A stretch of DNA of 26,091 nt from a virus: positions 1-26,091 of the IMG/VR virus record IMGVR_UViG_3300032240_000463. The stretch is one strand, 5' to 3'. The translations under genes were made by a program, and so were the position numbers. Each line of letters begins with the position of its first letter. The stretch's first letter is position 1. Under the pieces are notes generated by a model. It was given only the letters and a program-made list of their open reading frames with translations, was not told where the DNA came from and did no database searches. Below are positions 1,346 through 20,731 of the stretch, one piece after another.

Positions 1346-1938
1346 AATTTTATTCCATCATTTCTATTGTGTTCAGTTCTAATATGTTGTGCAATAATAT
1401 GCATCAACGCTTGATGACAATCTTCAACAATACCATAATTATCTTCTTGCACATGTAAAACATAATCTGCAAGTTCTGCGGCTTGACCGCCATCAAAACC
1501 TACAAATGCAATAGTCTCCATGTTTAATTCTTTAGCCTTCTTAATTGCATTGACAATATTCGGAGAATTGCCACTTGCTGAGATTGCCACAAGAATATTT
1601 CCTGCACTACCTTTCATACTTAGTTGAAAGGAAAATACATCATCATAACCTATATCATTTGCAATTGCAGTAAGAATAGAACCTGATGTAAGTGGTTGAA
1701 TCTTTGGTCTCAATAGTGCATCATAGTGAACACCTTTTGCATGGTCACAATGAAAATGGTCACTCATTGATAGGGAACCTCCGTTACCACATACAAAAAC
1801 ATCTATTCTTTTTCTGTATGCAAAGTCTAACAACTCAAATACTTTTTGTAATTGTTCTTTATTGACCGATTCTAATCCCGCATTAATACGATTTGCGTAA
1901 TTAGACAGTCGTTGATTTATTAATAATGTTTGTGACAT
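1342..1938 (-). CDS. gmhA: Phosphoheptose isomerase (sedoheptulose 7-phosphate isomerase), SIS domain
   Basis: The family converts sedoheptulose 7-phosphate to D-glycero-D-manno-heptose 7-phosphate, the first step to activated heptoses. The 198-residue protein shows the SIS-domain phosphate loop (VCGNGGSLSMSDHF), the HFxxDxxKG variant of the metal/active-site helix (HFHCDHAKG), a second Ser/Thr-rich loop (ISASGNSPNIV) and a C-terminal helix with the EDCHQALMHIIAQH histidines. Length is normal for GmhA. The start ATG at 1938 lies 38 bases inside the end of the upstream reductase gene and has only a weak ribosome site, but the distance from the start to the CGNGGS loop fits the family. It neighbours a HddA-like kinase gene, which supports a heptose route. 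Confidence 0.88.
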   Translation of the reverse strand: MSQTLLINQRLSNYANRINAGLESVNKEQLQKVFELLDFAYRKRIDVFVCGNGGSLSMSDHFHCDHAKGVHYDALLRPKIQPLTSGSILTAIANDIGYDDVFSFQLSMKGSAGNILVAISASGNSPNIVNAIKKAKELNMETIAFVGFDGGQAAELADYVLHVQEDNYGIVEDCHQALMHIIAQHIRTEHNRNDGIKL

Positions 1939-2863
1939 ACCAATTATAAGCCTCTTTTAATCCATCAATTAACTCTACTTTAGGTTTCCATCCTAAAGAC
2001 AAAATCTTACTGTTATCGGTAAGTTTGTTCATAGTTCCATCAGGTCTACTGATATCATACACAATTTCACCTTTAAAGTCAAGCGCAAGTGCGGCAATAG
2101 TTACGAACTGTGCGATTGGTATATCAAAACCAGGACTGATGTTTACGAAATTCTGCATTGGTTGTGTTACAGAATCCCATTTCTCTTTATCTACATTCAT
2201 TACATGGATACATGCATCTGCCATATCATCAACATAGAGGAATTCTCTGCGTGGTTTACCTGTTCCCCATACCATAAAATGAGCATCACCATTTTGTTTT
2301 GCACGATGAATTCGTTGAATCACACCTGCGGCCAAGTGACCATTTTCTTCATCATAGTTATCACCAGGTCCATATAAGTTACATGGTAATACGGAACGAT
2401 AATCAACACCATATTGACGATTGTAACTTTCACACATTTTAATGCCTGCCATTTTGGCAAGTGCATATGGTTCGTTAGTTGGTTCTAACATACCAGTCAT
2501 AATTTGGTGTTCGTGAATTGGGTTTTCTGCAAACTTAGGATAAACACAAGTCGAACCCAACATCAAAAGTTTCTTAATGCCACTCTCATAAGCCGCATTA
2601 ATGACATTCGTTTGAATCATAAGATTCTTATAAATGAATTCACCAGGATGATTATTGTTACCAATAATACCACCTACTTTGGCCGCAGCCATATAGACTT
2701 GGTCAATCTTATTACTTGCAAAAAAGTCTTTAACTGCTTGTTGATTAGTTAAATCTAATTCACTATGCGTTTTGGTGATGATATCGTTATGTCCCAAATC
2801 TTTAAGGCGCCTGACAATGGCAGAACCTACTAACCCACGGTGACCCGCAACAAAAATCTTCAT
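1901..2863 (-). CDS. fcl: GDP-L-fucose synthase-like NAD-dependent epimerase/reductase
   Basis: A 320-residue extended short-chain dehydrogenase that matches GDP-4-keto-6-deoxymannose epimerase/reductase (Fcl/WcaG). Visible motifs are the N-terminal nucleotide-binding loop GHRGLVGSAI, the MAAAKVGGI segment characteristic of Fcl, the catalytic LGSTCVYP serine strand and the PYALAKMAG Tyr-x3-Lys pair. The CNLYGPGDNYD and REFLYVDDMADA segments are also Fcl-like. It would act after Gmd. In heptose-making bacteria a close relative reduces the GDP-6-deoxyheptulose intermediate, so with gmhA nearby the true product could be GDP-fucose or a GDP-6-deoxyheptose. The ATG follows GAGG, six bases upstream, one base after the stop of the kinase gene. 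Confidence 0.85.
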   Translation of the reverse strand: MKIFVAGHRGLVGSAIVRRLKDLGHNDIITKTHSELDLTNQQAVKDFFASNKIDQVYMAAAKVGGIIGNNNHPGEFIYKNLMIQTNVINAAYESGIKKLLMLGSTCVYPKFAENPIHEHQIMTGMLEPTNEPYALAKMAGIKMCESYNRQYGVDYRSVLPCNLYGPGDNYDEENGHLAAGVIQRIHRAKQNGDAHFMVWGTGKPRREFLYVDDMADACIHVMNVDKEKWDSVTQPMQNFVNISPGFDIPIAQFVTIAALALDFKGEIVYDISRPDGTMNKLTDNSKILSLGWKPKVELIDGLKEAYNWYVTNIINKSTTV

Positions 2864-2864
2864 A

Positions 2865-3866
2865 TTATACCTCTTGGTCTTGATAATCGTGATAAATTAA
2901 TTGACTGCCTAAAAATTCAAAATCAATAGGAACTTCTCGCAGCTTCAATGCTTCTGCAACACTCTTTTGTTTTTCTGGTGGTGTGAGAAACATCATAAAA
3001 CCGCCACCACCCGCACCCAATAGTTTTCCACCTACTGCGCCGTTTTCAATACCTTTTTGGTAGATATTGTCGATATCACTATTCGTGATAGTTTTCTCAA
3101 TGGTCTTTTTATGTTCCCATTGTGTATGCATTAATGCACCCAACTCATTCATTTTGTTTGGGTTATTAGAAAATAGGATTTTTTCTGCTTCATCTGTAAT
3201 TTCTTTTACAATTTTCAAATCGATACTTTTCTTTTCGATGTTCTCAATTTTCTTATGTGCAATATCCGAAGCATTTCTCAATTGTTCAGTAAAGAATACT
3301 TGAACCCATGATTCTAATTCTTTAATCGTTTCTTTCTTCACATGCAATGGTGAACACATAAACTCTGATTTACCACCAAAATTGATACGATTGAAACCAC
3401 CAAATGCAGCTGCAACTTGGTCTTGAGAACCAACTGATTCACGGAGAATATTTTGTTCTAAATTAATAGAACTCAATGCAAGGTCTCTTTTCGTCAATTG
3501 TTTGTTTTGTAATACAGAAAGACCATGTAATAGTCCTACCGTAAAACTAGAACTTGATCCAATACCAGTGCGGTTAGGCAAATCGCCATGATGAGTAATA
3601 TCGAGTCCATCAGTAAATCCCATATAGTTAATTGCTTCACGAATAACAGGAACTTGAATATCTTCAATTGTATTTGTTTCTTGTCTATCATAATATCTGA
3701 TTCTATATTTGTAATCAAAGATAGGTGGCAATTTTCGTAAAACAAGGAACGAATACTTGTTGATAGTGGTAGAGATTACTGAACCACCGTGTTCACGATA
3801 CCATGCAGGATAGTCTGTGCTACCACCAAAGAATGAAATACGATATGGGGTTCTAATAATAATCAT
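2865..3866 (-). CDS. hddA: GHMP-family D-glycero-D-manno-heptose 7-phosphate kinase
   Basis: The protein has 333 residues and the three GHMP kinase signatures. Motif 1 is at the N-terminus (TPYRISFFGGSTDYP), the ATP-binding glycine/serine loop is GIGSSSSF (residues 101-108) and motif 3 is GGKLLGAGGGGFMMF near the C-terminus. The GGSTDYP and SVGSQDQVAAAFGGFN stretches are typical of HddA/WcbL-type heptose kinases. This family phosphorylates the anomeric carbon of heptose 7-phosphate in the GDP-heptose branch. It lies directly between a dehydratase gene (ATGA overlap) and the reductase gene, with gmhA two genes on. A fucose or other sugar kinase of the same family is the alternative. Confidence 0.82.
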   Translation of the reverse strand: MIIIRTPYRISFFGGSTDYPAWYREHGGSVISTTINKYSFLVLRKLPPIFDYKYRIRYYDRQETNTIEDIQVPVIREAINYMGFTDGLDITHHGDLPNRTGIGSSSSFTVGLLHGLSVLQNKQLTKRDLALSSINLEQNILRESVGSQDQVAAAFGGFNRINFGGKSEFMCSPLHVKKETIKELESWVQVFFTEQLRNASDIAHKKIENIEKKSIDLKIVKEITDEAEKILFSNNPNKMNELGALMHTQWEHKKTIEKTITNSDIDNIYQKGIENGAVGGKLLGAGGGGFMMFLTPPEKQKSVAEALKLREVPIDFEFLGSQLIYHDYQDQEV

Positions 3867-7400: not shown

Positions 7401-7408
7401 TATTTATT
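7401..7408 (-). promoter_or_regulatory. Possible T4-type late promoter
   Basis: The minus strand reads AATAAATA, seven of eight bases of the T4 late consensus TATAAATA. It overlaps the stop codon of the 90-residue gene and precedes the sugar cluster by about 36 bases. By T4 geometry transcription would start near 7395. The region is very AT-rich, so a chance match is quite possible. Confidence 0.35.
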
Positions 7409-7679
7409 AACCTCTTGTGAGTGCCAAAATCTTTTGTATCTGCGCTTCTACAAGCGTCTTACGATTTGGCCAATAGATGTATTCTTTATCTGAAGTTTTT
7501 AAAAGTTTTGTAAAGAAAGGTAAAACTAATTTTTCAACTTGCTCCAATCGTGCTTTAAATTCTTCTGCTGTATCAGCAGTATCAGAAATTACTTTGTTGT
7601 ATTCTTCTTCAGAAACGGCAGAGAATCCAAAATCATCGTCACCATATTCTGCAAGAATTTTATTAATATCGTATGCCAT
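7407..7679 (-). CDS. Small acidic protein of unknown function
   Basis: I do not recognise this 90-residue protein. It is highly charged and mostly helical by composition (AYDINKILAEYGDDDFGFS, then a Glu/Lys-rich helix), with no cysteines, no signal peptide and no membrane segment. Its ATG overlaps the TAA of the ligase-like gene (TAATG), so it is translationally coupled to that gene and probably belongs to the same late unit. An accessory or structural role alongside the preceding two proteins is a guess from context only. Confidence 0.75.
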   Translation of the reverse strand: MAYDINKILAEYGDDDFGFSAVSEEEYNKVISDTADTAEEFKARLEQVEKLVLPFFTKLLKTSDKEYIYWPNRKTLVEAQIQKILALTRG

Positions 7680-8911
7680 TACTTACTCCAGTTTTTCTGT
7701 GCAGTAAAATTCAAATGACTGAATTCAAGTCTATCAACTAACTTAACTGCGTTACCTTTTAATCTATCTACTGCAACAAAACCTTCGGGATTCGTAACCT
7801 TAAATCCATCTTCTGTTTGAACAAAGGTACTTGTTACTTGTCTCATCTGTTGCAATTTTTTGATAATCATATTCTTTGCATCAACCATGCCATTCTGCAT
7901 ATCAAAGATACGAATCAAGTCCATTGAATTGTTACGGAGAGTTCGCATGATTTCATTTTTAATCATGGTCTTATCTCTCTTTGTTTTTTCCATTTTTGCA
8001 GAAGAAATATCTTTGTTTAATTTTTCTTCAACCCACTTCAACAATTCTCTTGTGTGGGCATTTGTATTTGTAATCTTCTGACCTTCACGCACTTTGGTGT
8101 TATTAAAAGTCTTAATGTATTCTCTAACAGTATCATTTGATGATATTCTATTGATAGCCAATGAATTGGTTTGTTTGAATAGTGAACCCACATTCGATAG
8201 AATAGAAGTAATTGATTTCGTTTCTTCTTCTGTGAATGATGCAGTACCAGATGCATCAGTAAAATATGCATCACGGAACCAAACATCTTTAGTTGGCGTT
8301 AAATTCTTAATGTCAATATTGAATGACGCTTTCATATCAGCAAATGTTTTGCCTGTGTATGAAGTATGAAACACAACACCCATTTGTGCAGATGTCATAG
8401 CTTTTGCAAGTTTAGAATCAGAAGGTACAGCATAGACTAATGTATTTGGTTGAAATGTAATGTAGTTTTCACCATCAAGTGTTTTTTGTGTTATATCACC
8501 TTTTGCAAACATCATATCACCTTGCAGAACACCTTTGATGCCAAGTTTTGGAAGATATCTTAGTGCAACTTTAAGTTTTACATTAAGACCCTCACCTGGA
8601 TGGTTCTTGTCAATGTCAGCATCGGTGTAATTCAACTTTGCATTTGCATTGAATACACCTTTTGTACCAACAAAGAACTGACCATTGTCTGGATTAACAC
8701 CACAAAAGATTGCAGGTGAACCATCCCATTTTGTTGTAACATTTACTTTTGATTGCGAATGACCGGCAAGCATATCTCTCAATGCTTGTAAGAAATTAAT
8801 TGCATCACGACCACCTTGAACACCACGATTGAGAATCTCATCCTCAATATGTTCTAGGTGAAGGTTCGCACCTTCTTTTTTTGCTTCGGTTAAATATTCT
8901 TTGAATTTCAT
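7679..8911 (-). CDS. Ligase-fold nucleotidyltransferase-like protein with capsid-targeting-like N-terminus
   Basis: The 410-residue protein carries an ordered set of motifs like those of ATP-dependent DNA/RNA ligases. Motif I KWDG is at residues 61-64 (candidate nucleotidylated Lys61), a motif III-like VLQGDMMF at 128-135, a IIIa-like VVFHTSYTG near 179-187, a motif IV-like EGFV at 376-379 and a motif V-like VKLVD at 389-393. About 190 residues separate IIIa from IV, far more than in ordinary ligases, so an insertion or a divergent family is likely. The N-terminus MKFKEYLTEA resembles the capsid-targeting leader of T4 internal proteins, with a Leu-x-Glu/Ala protease site. It lies one base after the preceding gene. 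It could be an active ligase, a capping-like enzyme or an inactive relative. Motif spacing is by eye only. Confidence 0.6.
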   Translation of the reverse strand: MKFKEYLTEAKKEGANLHLEHIEDEILNRGVQGGRDAINFLQALRDMLAGHSQSKVNVTTKWDGSPAIFCGVNPDNGQFFVGTKGVFNANAKLNYTDADIDKNHPGEGLNVKLKVALRYLPKLGIKGVLQGDMMFAKGDITQKTLDGENYITFQPNTLVYAVPSDSKLAKAMTSAQMGVVFHTSYTGKTFADMKASFNIDIKNLTPTKDVWFRDAYFTDASGTASFTEEETKSITSILSNVGSLFKQTNSLAINRISSNDTVREYIKTFNNTKVREGQKITNTNAHTRELLKWVEEKLNKDISSAKMEKTKRDKTMIKNEIMRTLRNNSMDLIRIFDMQNGMVDAKNMIIKKLQQMRQVTSTFVQTEDGFKVTNPEGFVAVDRLKGNAVKLVDRLEFSHLNFTAQKNWSK

Positions 8912-8912
8912 A

Positions 8913-10013
8913 TTAACTATACTTTATGAATATGCTACTGTTCTTTGTTGCGGATGATGCATATTCATAAATGTATTTACACAATGCATCCATTTTCTTT
9001 TCTTTAATAACGGTATAAACTAAATCAATACCAATATACTTAGACATCCACCAAGTCTTATCTTTTCTATGTCCTGCTTTTGCTTGTGTAATCAATGTAT
9101 CAATCTTTTCCTTTGAACCCGACAACTCTTTAAACATTGTTGCAAACTTTTTAAAGTCGGCATCAGTTGGTTTATCAATAGGTGTCTGATTAGGTTGTGT
9201 CAATTTAGATTTATTAACACCCGCTTCAACTGCACCTTCAAAAATGATACCACCACCTATTTTACCACCTGCGGCAGCTTTACCTTTAATTTCACCTTGC
9301 CATGAAGATGGAACAGGACGACTGGAGAAATTACGCAACTGAACTTCACCTGCAACACCTTCAGATTTATACTGAATGTAAATGTCTTTTGAATCCGTCA
9401 TATTCATACCAAGTTTTACACCTGTGAACTGAGCAACAAGAGGTTTACCATTATTAAAAAATTTAGAATGTGGTTGGTCTTTAGGACCAATTTTCTTTAA
9501 TGATATACCAATCATGTTGGTATATGCAAATTCATCATAAACATAACGATTATATTCACCCAATGTATCAAATTTGGTTTGTAACTTAAAACCTTTTCTA
9601 ATCATCCAAATATCGGCAGGATTCCATTTATCATCACCAGTAATACCACTACCTTTTTTGAATTTACGCCAGTTATCGTAGATTGAATTGACTAAAGCTC
9701 CACCACGATAAAATTTAAAATTCTTACCACTACTTGCACCAGGTACTTCTTCGAAAATTAAGTTAGCAGTCAATACAACACTTCTAAACCAATTCTCATC
9801 TAAACCTTCCATACATGCTGCAAGCGTTCTATCACAATCAGCATCAGCAGTTGTTGACTTGGTTATTTGAGAAACATCTGTCAATGGTTTACCTAAATGT
9901 TGTCTTGTCGCACAAGCATATGCCTGTAAACTTTCTGCCAAAGCGGTAAGTTCAGCACCTGCACCAGATTGTTTTCCTTCTGTATCTACATTAACTTTTG
10001 TTGGGATTTTCAT
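8913..10013 (-). CDS. Late protein of unknown function, possible nuclease fold
   Basis: A 366-residue protein that I cannot assign. Noteworthy stretches are NPADIWMIRKGF (about residue 130), then IGISLKKIGPKDQPHSKFFN, and later KDIYIQYKSEG with GEVQLRNFSS. A D-I-W strand followed by an S-L-K-K strand is the kind of spacing seen in some PD-(D/E)xK nucleases, but the evidence is weak. A Gly/Ala-rich segment (KGKAAAGGKIGGGIIFEGA) follows. There is no signal peptide or membrane helix. A Leu-Ala-Glu/Ser site at residues 25-28 would fit the T4 prohead protease rule. The gene has its own late promoter and an SD-covering hairpin, so it is probably expressed late and could be a virion component. Confidence 0.8.
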   Translation of the reverse strand: MKIPTKVNVDTEGKQSGAGAELTALAESLQAYACATRQHLGKPLTDVSQITKSTTADADCDRTLAACMEGLDENWFRSVVLTANLIFEEVPGASSGKNFKFYRGGALVNSIYDNWRKFKKGSGITGDDKWNPADIWMIRKGFKLQTKFDTLGEYNRYVYDEFAYTNMIGISLKKIGPKDQPHSKFFNNGKPLVAQFTGVKLGMNMTDSKDIYIQYKSEGVAGEVQLRNFSSRPVPSSWQGEIKGKAAAGGKIGGGIIFEGAVEAGVNKSKLTQPNQTPIDKPTDADFKKFATMFKELSGSKEKIDTLITQAKAGHRKDKTWWMSKYIGIDLVYTVIKEKKMDALCKYIYEYASSATKNSSIFIKYS

Positions 10014-10015
10014 TT

Positions 10016-10045
10016 TAAATACCTAAATTATTGACTAGGTATTTA
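10016..10045 (-). promoter_or_regulatory. Hairpin sequestering the ribosome-binding site of the 366-residue late gene
   Basis: On the minus strand a perfect 10-base inverted repeat is present: TAAATACCTA at 10045-10036 and TAGGTATTTA at 10025-10016, separated by a 10-base loop. The AGG that serves as Shine-Dalgarno, eight bases before the ATG at 10013, lies in the right arm. The left arm overlaps the late promoter and lies upstream of its predicted start site. Read-through RNA would therefore be folded and silent while late RNA is open, as described for T4 genes e, soc and 49. Confidence 0.65.
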
Positions 10046-10047
10046 TG
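10040..10047 (-). promoter_or_regulatory. T4-type late promoter
   Basis: The minus strand reads CATAAATA followed by CCTAG, seven of eight bases of the T4 late consensus. It lies in the only sizeable gap (43 bases) between the replication genes and the late-like module. By T4 spacing transcription would start near 10034, about 20 bases before the ATG at 10013. The gene order and the associated hairpin raise confidence. Confidence 0.6.
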
Positions 10048-10056
10048 TTATCTCAA

Positions 10057-11172
10057 TTACCGAATAATGTCAAGTTCTTTTTCGCCTGTCCAAACTTCTA
10101 TCTCGGAGCGCAGCCTATTCTCAGACTTGAGTGTATCATATCTTGTCGTTGATTTCTTCTTCCACCACTCTATAATCGATTCCAAATGAAACTTATCATA
10201 GTTCTCCTTGTCTGGAATTAACTTGTCGGTTCTTCCCATAACAACATCGGTAAAGTTACTGTAACCATAGTTTGAGGCATAGTATCGTTTCTTTTCTGTC
10301 AACGACAAGGCGTTCTCAATAGTCTTTGCGAACTTTTCACCTTCTGGTGTGCCTTTGAGTGCCGCTTTAGTCATTGCAATAATTGTATTTGAAATCTTCA
10401 TCTTACGGGAAGAAGCATCTTCTGGTACAAAAACACCAATTGCAGTTTCAACATACTGTTTCAAATCTTCATATGGTTTGCCATGCATCATTGGAATGAA
10501 ATTACTATCTGTTAGACCTTTGAATCTGAGGTAAGGTTTCATGCCATCATATTGTGATGATGACTTAGAACTACCATATAATGAAGTTGTCTCAAACAAA
10601 CATGTATTCATCTTATACTTTTTGTTCAGCATTTCTTTAATCTCATGTGAACAACAGATAGCGGCAAGCAACTTACCACCAAGGTAGTTGAAACCAAATG
10701 GTTGACTTGGCACAATCACAAAACCCATAATTGATGTGTGATTAAATGCCTTAGATGATTCTGGTGCCTGTGTAAAGACACCTTGTAACATTTCATTGCG
10801 TGGTTTCATATTAATCACAGGAGAACCTAGACGAATGAAACCGACCCACTTCTTAGTTTTCTTTTCTAATACTGCCAATCGTAAACAACGACCAGGAATA
10901 CTAGTCATGTTAGAGTGACTTGAAATCATATTCAGATAAATGTCCCAAGTATCTTGTGGCAGTTCAACCAATTCAAAGTCCATATCTTTTGGATGAATAC
11001 TGAAGTCACTAAACAAGTCATCTTCAGGTCCCATGCCAAACAAGGCAGTAGGTCTTTCAGAAAGACTGTTTAGTTTTTGGTCACGAATGTAGTCATCGAT
11101 TCTTTCGAACCTATCAAAGTAATCAGAGAATACACTTGCACAATGTATGGCTTGTTCTTTGGACAAACTCAT
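10057..11172 (-). CDS. DruA/DUF4338-like protein
   Basis: A 371-residue protein without clear enzymatic motifs. The central region (about residues 100-235) follows the pattern I associate with DUF4338, the fold of Druantia protein DruA. It has a strand with WVGFIRLGSPV, an FVIVP strand with GFNYLGGKLLAAICCSHEI, then CLFETTSLYGSSK and QYDGMKPYLRFKG. DruA is part of a bacterial anti-phage system, but phages also carry relatives of unknown role. The start has a strong GGAGAC site and overlaps the gp41 stop by four bases, so it is made with the helicase. The family assignment is from memory of the pattern and needs a profile search. Confidence 0.45.
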   Translation of the reverse strand: MSLSKEQAIHCASVFSDYFDRFERIDDYIRDQKLNSLSERPTALFGMGPEDDLFSDFSIHPKDMDFELVELPQDTWDIYLNMISSHSNMTSIPGRCLRLAVLEKKTKKWVGFIRLGSPVINMKPRNEMLQGVFTQAPESSKAFNHTSIMGFVIVPSQPFGFNYLGGKLLAAICCSHEIKEMLNKKYKMNTCLFETTSLYGSSKSSSQYDGMKPYLRFKGLTDSNFIPMMHGKPYEDLKQYVETAIGVFVPEDASSRKMKISNTIIAMTKAALKGTPEGEKFAKTIENALSLTEKKRYYASNYGYSNFTDVVMGRTDKLIPDKENYDKFHLESIIEWWKKKSTTRYDTLKSENRLRSEIEVWTGEKELDIIR

Positions 11173-20195: not shown

Positions 20196-20666
20196 TTACG
20201 CTACCTGCTTTTCTTGTAACAGTTGAAGTTTGAAATTCTTCAAATCATTACCAATTTCAATCTTGCGTGGTTTCTTGTGTTCAGGAATAACATTCTCTAA
20301 ACCAATACGCAAAATGCCATCAATAAATTCTGCACCTTTTACTTCGATTGTGTCAGCTACGGTAATTGTCTTAGTGAAAGACCTAGTGCCAATACCTTTG
20401 TGTAGATATTGCACATCACTTTCTTTATCTTCCTTTTCACCTTTCACAGTCAACACTCCTGCATTAACTGAAATATCGATTTCATCTTTAGAAAATCCTG
20501 CAATAGCAAGTTCTACGATGTATCGTGTATCATCCAGTTTTAGGATGTTATGTGGAGGGAAAGTTGATTTTTGAATATCCATGGTCAATAGTTTTTCAAC
20601 ATCGTCAAAAAACTTGTCAAATCCCAATGTAGATTGGTATAGTGGAACGAATGAAATTCGTGTCAT
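20196..20666 (-). CDS. hsp20: Small heat shock protein (Hsp20/alpha-crystallin)
   Basis: The 156-residue chaperone has an alpha-crystallin domain at about residues 40-140. NILKLDDTRYIVELAIAGFSKDEIDISV is its first half, LTVKGEKE the middle strand, and the GTRSFTKTITV, GAEFIDGILRIGLE region carries the family G-x-L-x-I pattern. A C-terminal extension follows. Such proteins hold unfolding proteins in soluble form. Hsp20 genes are common in T4-like phages of aquatic bacteria. This copy forms its own unit with a perfect T4 late promoter, a 5' hairpin, a strong AAGGAGAAC ribosome site and an intrinsic terminator, so strong late expression, perhaps to aid virion assembly, is inferred. Confidence 0.93.
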   Translation of the reverse strand: MTRISFVPLYQSTLGFDKFFDDVEKLLTMDIQKSTFPPHNILKLDDTRYIVELAIAGFSKDEIDISVNAGVLTVKGEKEDKESDVQYLHKGIGTRSFTKTITVADTIEVKGAEFIDGILRIGLENVIPEHKKPRKIEIGNDLKNFKLQLLQEKQVA

Positions 20667-20697
20667 AAAGTTCTCCTTTTAAGCGAGTTACAAAATT

Positions 20698-20718
20698 GGC
20701 GACCCTTTCGGCATCGCC
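20698..20718 (-). promoter_or_regulatory. 5'-terminal GNRA-type hairpin of the hsp20 mRNA
   Basis: On the minus strand a hairpin of six base pairs (GGCGAU with GUCGCC), a bulged G, two C-G pairs and a GAAA tetraloop spans 20718-20698. Its first base is exactly the predicted start site of the late promoter, so it would be the 5' end of the message. It could protect the RNA from decay. It lacks the immediate U-run of a terminator. Confidence 0.6.
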
Positions 20719-20723
20719 TTCAT

Positions 20724-20731
20724 TATTTATA
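20724..20731 (-). promoter_or_regulatory. T4-type late promoter of hsp20
   Basis: The minus strand reads TATAAATA, a perfect match to the T4 late consensus recognised by the gp55 sigma factor. It is located eight bases after the RegA stop codon and 58 bases upstream of the Hsp20 start. With T4 spacing the start site is 20718, the first base of the hairpin described separately. Confidence 0.82.

Follow-up and report, generated by a model that had tools for sequence, protein, structure and literature searches.

A conserved hairpin over a Shine-Dalgarno sequence, overlapping late and predicted sigma70-type promoters, as a likely timing lock in uncultured T4-like phages

Background

In phage T4, the genes e, soc, 49 and I-TevI are preceded by a hairpin that sequesters the Shine-Dalgarno sequence (SD) in the long early RNA, with a late promoter lying inside the region of the stem's 5' strand (PMC3014915). 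The same design has been established for the leaders of segB and of Aeh1 mobE (PMC2988022). Homing endonuclease genes that carry it (I-TevI, I-TevII, I-TevIII, segB and mobE) are inserted in early or middle operons and expressed late (PMC2988022).

Here we analyze a leader of this kind in an uncultured T4-like phage represented by IMG/VR record IMGVR_UViG_3300032240_000463. The DNA under study, hereafter “the window,” is the whole stretch of 26,091 nt (positions 1 to 26,091 of the record). An original prediction, made from the letters alone, had placed a late promoter within an SD-sequestering hairpin and likened the arrangement to T4 e, soc and 49; the published description of those genes (PMC3014915) confirms that the comparison was apt.

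Results

The locus and its variable gene

The leader lies between an upstream gene and a three-gene module, all encoded on the minus strand and listed here in the order in which they would be transcribed.

10057-11172, minus strand: DruA-like gene (371 aa, phrog_19197), the constant gene upstream, with the predicted -35 element in its 3' end
8913-10013, minus strand: the 366-residue gene under the putative lock (phrog_1462, without an assigned function), a hypervariable cassette in relatives
7679-8911, minus strand: DUF6267 gene (410 aa, Pfam PF19782), the constant downstream partner
7407-7679, minus strand: 90-aa open reading frame, the third gene of the module, with a further ATAAATA (7407-7401) behind it

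The stop codon of the DruA-like gene occupies 10059-10057, and the minus-strand gap that follows reads TAATTGAGATAACATAAATACCTAGTCAATAATTTAGGTATTTAAAATG, down to the ATG (10013-10011) of the 366-residue gene.

In relatives, the DruA-like and DUF6267 genes are constant, with DUF6267 immediately 3' of the variable gene in almost every relative of sufficient length, and it is the middle gene that varies. This gene belongs either to subtypes of phrog_1462 or to phrog_19894, which are mutually homologous; the alternative middle genes, phrog_2496 and phrog_8438, have no detectable homology to that pair. A search of bacterial genomes for DUF6267 found nothing. The exchange is visible in relative L131, which is 97% identical to the window in DNA from 12565 to 10039, the match ending exactly at ATAAATAC; the two are unrelated across the 366-residue gene, and identity resumes, at 95%, from the DUF6267 start codon at 8911. 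Because the boundary falls at ATAAATAC, each cassette brings its own variable arm and SD, and the lock survives the swap.

L131, L133, L156, L163, L201 and others show this cassette swapped between aquatic T4-like phages whose flanking sequences are about 97% identical. Relatives L038 and L039 hold two cassette genes in tandem (1489-3833), each behind a DruA 3' end and promoter, an arrangement that suggests recombination through this sequence.

The 366-residue protein matched no Pfam family or domain, and its PHROG is without an assigned function. Its AlphaFold model (pLDDT 88) gave no PDB fold match in Foldseek (best E 0.19) and otherwise matched only uncharacterised phage proteins. A PD-(D/E)XK nuclease had been suspected from invariant W-P-x-D-I and S-L-K motifs, but we do not claim one, given the lack of a PDB match in Foldseek. 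A homing endonuclease was also considered and set aside, as no recognisable domain was found by Pfam, PHROG or PDB fold.

A hairpin and a late-type promoter share the leader

The gap contains four overlapping elements.

10036-10045, minus strand: left (anti-SD) arm of the hairpin, of which 10039-10036 is the variable, covarying part
10016-10025, minus strand: right arm, the perfect complement of the left arm, with the SD inside it
10021-10024, minus strand: AGGT, a Shine-Dalgarno-like sequence 7 nt before the ATG and the gene's only SD
10040-10047, minus strand: CATAAATA, a T4-type late promoter element whose ATAAATA (10046-10040) overlaps the left arm; predicted late start at about 10034

The arms are complementary at 10 of 10 positions and separated by a 10-nt gap, and the 36-nt hairpin element folds at -10.8 kcal/mol, a value that none of 200 shuffles equalled. 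All coordinates of arms, promoter element, SD and start in the original prediction agree with the sequence; sequence and folding likewise uphold its statements that the hairpin covers the only SD and that the late-type element overlaps the left arm. T4 geometry, with the 8-bp TATA box spanning -13 to -6, places the late start at 10034, inside the hairpin loop; in folding, the stem appears in read-through RNA and is absent when the RNA begins at 10034. Across the leaders of this locus, folded from both starts, the median probability that the SD is unpaired is 0.03 for read-through RNA versus 0.62 for late RNA, in line with the predicted states of folded and open.

ATAAATA itself behaves as a late promoter should in six large relatives, where it is strongly strand-biased, 84 of its 103 sites lie just upstream of an open reading frame, and a homologue of the late sigma factor gp55 is encoded in every one (6/6). 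In 43 other late leaders with an SD, a set that includes one DruA-locus leader (16-nt spacer) misclassed by our script, the unpaired probability is 0.46 for read-through versus 0.48 for late RNA. As these leaders show no difference between the two RNAs, the lock is specific to this gene. We likewise rejected the idea that late promoters in general share the element, since the lock and the TTGACA described below are both missing from other late leaders. A genome-wide repeated element was also rejected: the window has a single copy of the hairpin pattern, and the exact pattern in viral contigs marks either the same locus or unrelated contexts. Searched against Rfam, the whole window matched no known RNA family.

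We consider it likely that the element is a post-transcriptional timing lock on the 366-residue gene. RNA assumed to read through from the replication genes for the gp41 helicase and the DruA-like protein would contain both arms, fold and hide the SD. RNA polymerase carrying gp55 would initiate about 6 nt downstream of ATAAATA and omit the left arm; with that arm missing, the SD of the late RNA would be open and the gene would be translated late. The account builds on the sequence elements, the covariation of the arms, the codon-level conservation of the -35, the gene specificity and the presence of gp55 in relatives. From these we infer its start sites, translation states and timing.

A sigma70-type promoter predicted on the same bases

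Upstream of ATAAATA, and partly on top of it, lie two further conserved elements.

10068-10073, minus strand: TTGACA, the predicted -35 of a sigma70-type promoter, in the DruA-like gene's final codons (Leu-Asp-Ile)
10045-10050, minus strand: TAACAT, the predicted -10 after a 17-nt spacer, its final AT common with ATAAATA

The consensus of the relatives is TTGACA, N16/17, TAnnAT, in which the last two bases of TAnnAT are the first two of ATAAATA. Because TTGACA falls within Leu-Asp-Ile codons, conservation of the protein and of the DNA had to be told apart. The Asp codon within TTGACA is GAC in 116 of 122 distinct genes; at seven further conserved Asp columns the count is 6-38 of 122. Of the 114 genes whose -10 is correctly spaced, 113 have GAC, versus 3 of the 8 without such a -10 (Fisher p = 1.6e-6). 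In the DruA-like homologue of DSL-LC02, where the promoter is absent, the codon is GAT. T4-type late promoters have no conserved -35, and at this site TTGACA is conserved; we read it here as part of a second, putative promoter that overlaps the late promoter rather than belonging to it. That the two are separable elements follows from the L200-L208 lineage, where the -10-like TATGCT and ATAAATA are 5 nt apart. TAGGAT, TATAAT and TACAAT are also found as -10s, upstream of a similar-sized gene of 753-786 aa in relatives.

Where a sigma70-type RNA would begin is not predictable to the nucleotide, as the favoured positions are pyrimidines; it would start within or next to the left arm, and a few nucleotides would decide whether it is locked or open. 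For RNA that starts at the last A of ATAAATA, the SD is paired in the leaders of the locus (median 0.16 unpaired), and when the window RNA starts two nt past that A, the stem is gone. The predicted sigma70 RNA may or may not contain the left arm, depending on its start site.

Some relatives have no hairpin at all. In the clade of L018-L021, L024-L026, L032-L039 and L052-L056, the start codon directly follows ATAAATA(C/A/T) and is 7 nt downstream of the -10; RNA from either the sigma70 or the late start would have almost no leader. This clade and the conserved sigma70-type promoter on the same bases weigh against a timing lock, as do the 21 of 69 leaders that lack the strict stem (below). The clade and the promoter also make doubtful the original claim that the downstream module is made only late, as this promoter could transcribe it earlier and one clade has lost the hairpin.

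With such a promoter on the same bases, the earlier RNA need not be read-through. One tentative extension of the timing lock is that the choice of holoenzyme, and not only read-through, sets translation: sigma70 and gp55 starts about 5 nt apart would differ by the anti-SD arm, leaving the early RNA silent and the late RNA translated, and a lock that rides with a cassette swapped at the promoter edge would standardise the cassette's timing. A different account, which we regard as unlikely, makes the sigma70 promoter the main one, giving early or continuous expression, with the short 5' hairpin mainly tuning or stabilising the RNA and ATAAATA adding late expression. It would fit the retention of TTGACA-N16/17-TAnnAT at the DNA level beyond what the protein demands, and the hairpin-less clade, where the start codon lies at the point where sigma70 would start. 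It would fit, too, the abundance of similar sites in six relatives (57 of TTGACA-N16-18-TAnnAT versus 9 of the reversed pattern) and the restriction of this pairing to one late promoter, exact TTGACA with TAnn occurring at no other ATAAATA site in those relatives. However, the SD is always covered by the paired arm, and a hairpin serving only to stabilise the 5' end would have no need of this; such hairpins are not shown at other sigma70-type sites, and ATAAATA is equally conserved.

Compensatory change among relatives

We collected IMG/VR loci with two protein queries, the 366-aa protein and the upstream 371-aa protein, each of which gave 80 loci, with some contigs overlapping. ATAAATA is present in nearly all of the relatives' leaders, and the bases just after it covary with the right arm: CCTA/TAGG, CCTG/CAGG, CTCC/GGAG, CCCA/TGGG, CTCA/TGGG and others. 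A 5-bp core stem just before the start codon is found in 48 of 69 distinct homologous leaders (at least 24 nt, not chosen on pairing), and the strict stem is missing from the other 21. The corresponding mean is 1.5 (max 6) for shuffled leaders and 19.5 (max 32) for arms permuted between leaders. These counts enter related sequences as separate, the phylogeny of the leaders being uncertain through cassette exchange.

The covariation score, computed on 37 aligned leaders that bear the hairpin, is 0.377 versus 0.177 +/- 0.018 in shuffles, none of 500 of which reach it, and structures slid along the alignment score 0.01-0.07 (at most 0.074). Two middle stem positions are paired in all 37 despite U-A, C-G and U-G variants. 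Permutation of arm types gives 8.4 +/- 1.0 (max 11.2 in 1000) versus 13.3 observed. A tree-based pair test is partly circular, because the leaders had been selected for pairing, and we rely on the permutation and sliding controls instead. The hairpin is real and is maintained by compensatory change in dozens of related phages; the covariation of arms on which the original prediction had staked itself is thus present.

The same data bear on whether the repeat acts as DNA. A DNA operator or an intrinsic terminator might be suspected in a palindromic repeat that overlaps two promoters, but we hold this to be very improbable. The spacing of the arms ranges from 7 to 16 nt among relatives (one tandem-duplicated case apart), which breaks helical phasing and fits an RNA loop rather than an operator; the sequence of the arms is free to change so long as pairing stays; and the stem, immediately ahead of the start codon, is rich in A+T and has no T run. 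Chance, finally, can be dismissed almost entirely: 35% of dinucleotide-shuffled windows contain one or more stems of at least 10 bp with a 4-15 nt loop, so that an isolated repeat in 26 kb of A+T-rich DNA is not beyond chance and the significance of this one rests on conservation, but the covariation seen in relatives, and where their stems lie with respect to the SD, refute that explanation.

The lock is common, not universal, among the relatives. Leaders of the phrog_2496 and phrog_8438 cassettes are mostly unlocked, with L160 and L188 as exceptions. Among cultured phages, inspection of the corresponding leader in Melnitz showed no SD hairpin, and HTVC008M and DSL-LC02 are uninformative on the leader, as their DruA-like gene is at another location. 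In L160, the hairpin is tandemly duplicated.

Other structured leaders

Several other leaders were seen to be structured. The Hsp20 gene of the window has ATAAATA and a structured leader, GGCGA...TCGCC (20666-20730, minus strand), and Hsp20 leaders in relatives (L115, L123) show a recurring TAACTCGCTTAA...AGGAG before the start. In L114 and L124, ATAAATA and a hairpin, CGCTGTAGAGGCGGGAG, precede a gene of 844-847 aa, similar in length to the window's DNA polymerase (844 aa); this hairpin perhaps resembles the translational operator of T4 gp43. The motif CGCTGTAGAGGCGG recurs in leaders of other relatives, and the window's own polymerase leader is without it. L110, L122 and L125 have a recurrent leader, ATAAATAGGTGTG...TCGC...CACTCTAA...AAAGGA...CAGC-ATG, with a longer-range stem.

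Comparison with known systems

The design of the lock is already known from phage T4, and its presence here is well supported. A search of the literature, conducted largely outside subscription journals, found no description of the combination of features at this locus. On the evidence of covariation in many lineages, a timing lock shown in a few T-even genes extends to uncultured T4-like phages of aquatic origin, across a broad group. A host-sigma promoter also appears to be superimposed here on the phage-sigma one, the -35 of the host-type promoter lying in the codons of the upstream gene. Since otherwise near-identical phages exchange the cassette and each version keeps a lock to match, early synthesis of its product probably has to be prevented, which recommends the locked family for study.

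As in T4 e, soc and 49, a hairpin hides the SD and the late promoter is predicted, by sequence and T4 geometry, to yield RNA without the 5' strand of the stem. Unlike those genes, whose early RNA is traced to an upstream origin in the published description, the locus has a sigma70-type promoter superimposed on the late promoter, and the locked gene belongs to a hypervariable family without an assigned function. The promoter resembles T4 late promoters (gp55/gp33/gp45; PMC2988020) in having ATAAATA one helical turn before the start and gp55 in relatives; they have no conserved -35 (PMC2988020), and here TTGACA stands 16-17 nt ahead of a TAnnAT overlapping ATAAATA. Like I-TevI, I-TevII, I-TevIII, segB and Aeh1 mobE (PMC2988022), the gene is mobile and carries its own lock. 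Unlike homing endonuclease genes, the 366-residue gene has no recognisable endonuclease domain; its replacement occurs in situ, between neighbours that stay fixed, rather than by insertion at a homing site. The locus thus differs from the known cases in its superimposed sigma70-type promoter, a -35 fixed in coding sequence, its cassette context and the breadth of its conservation.
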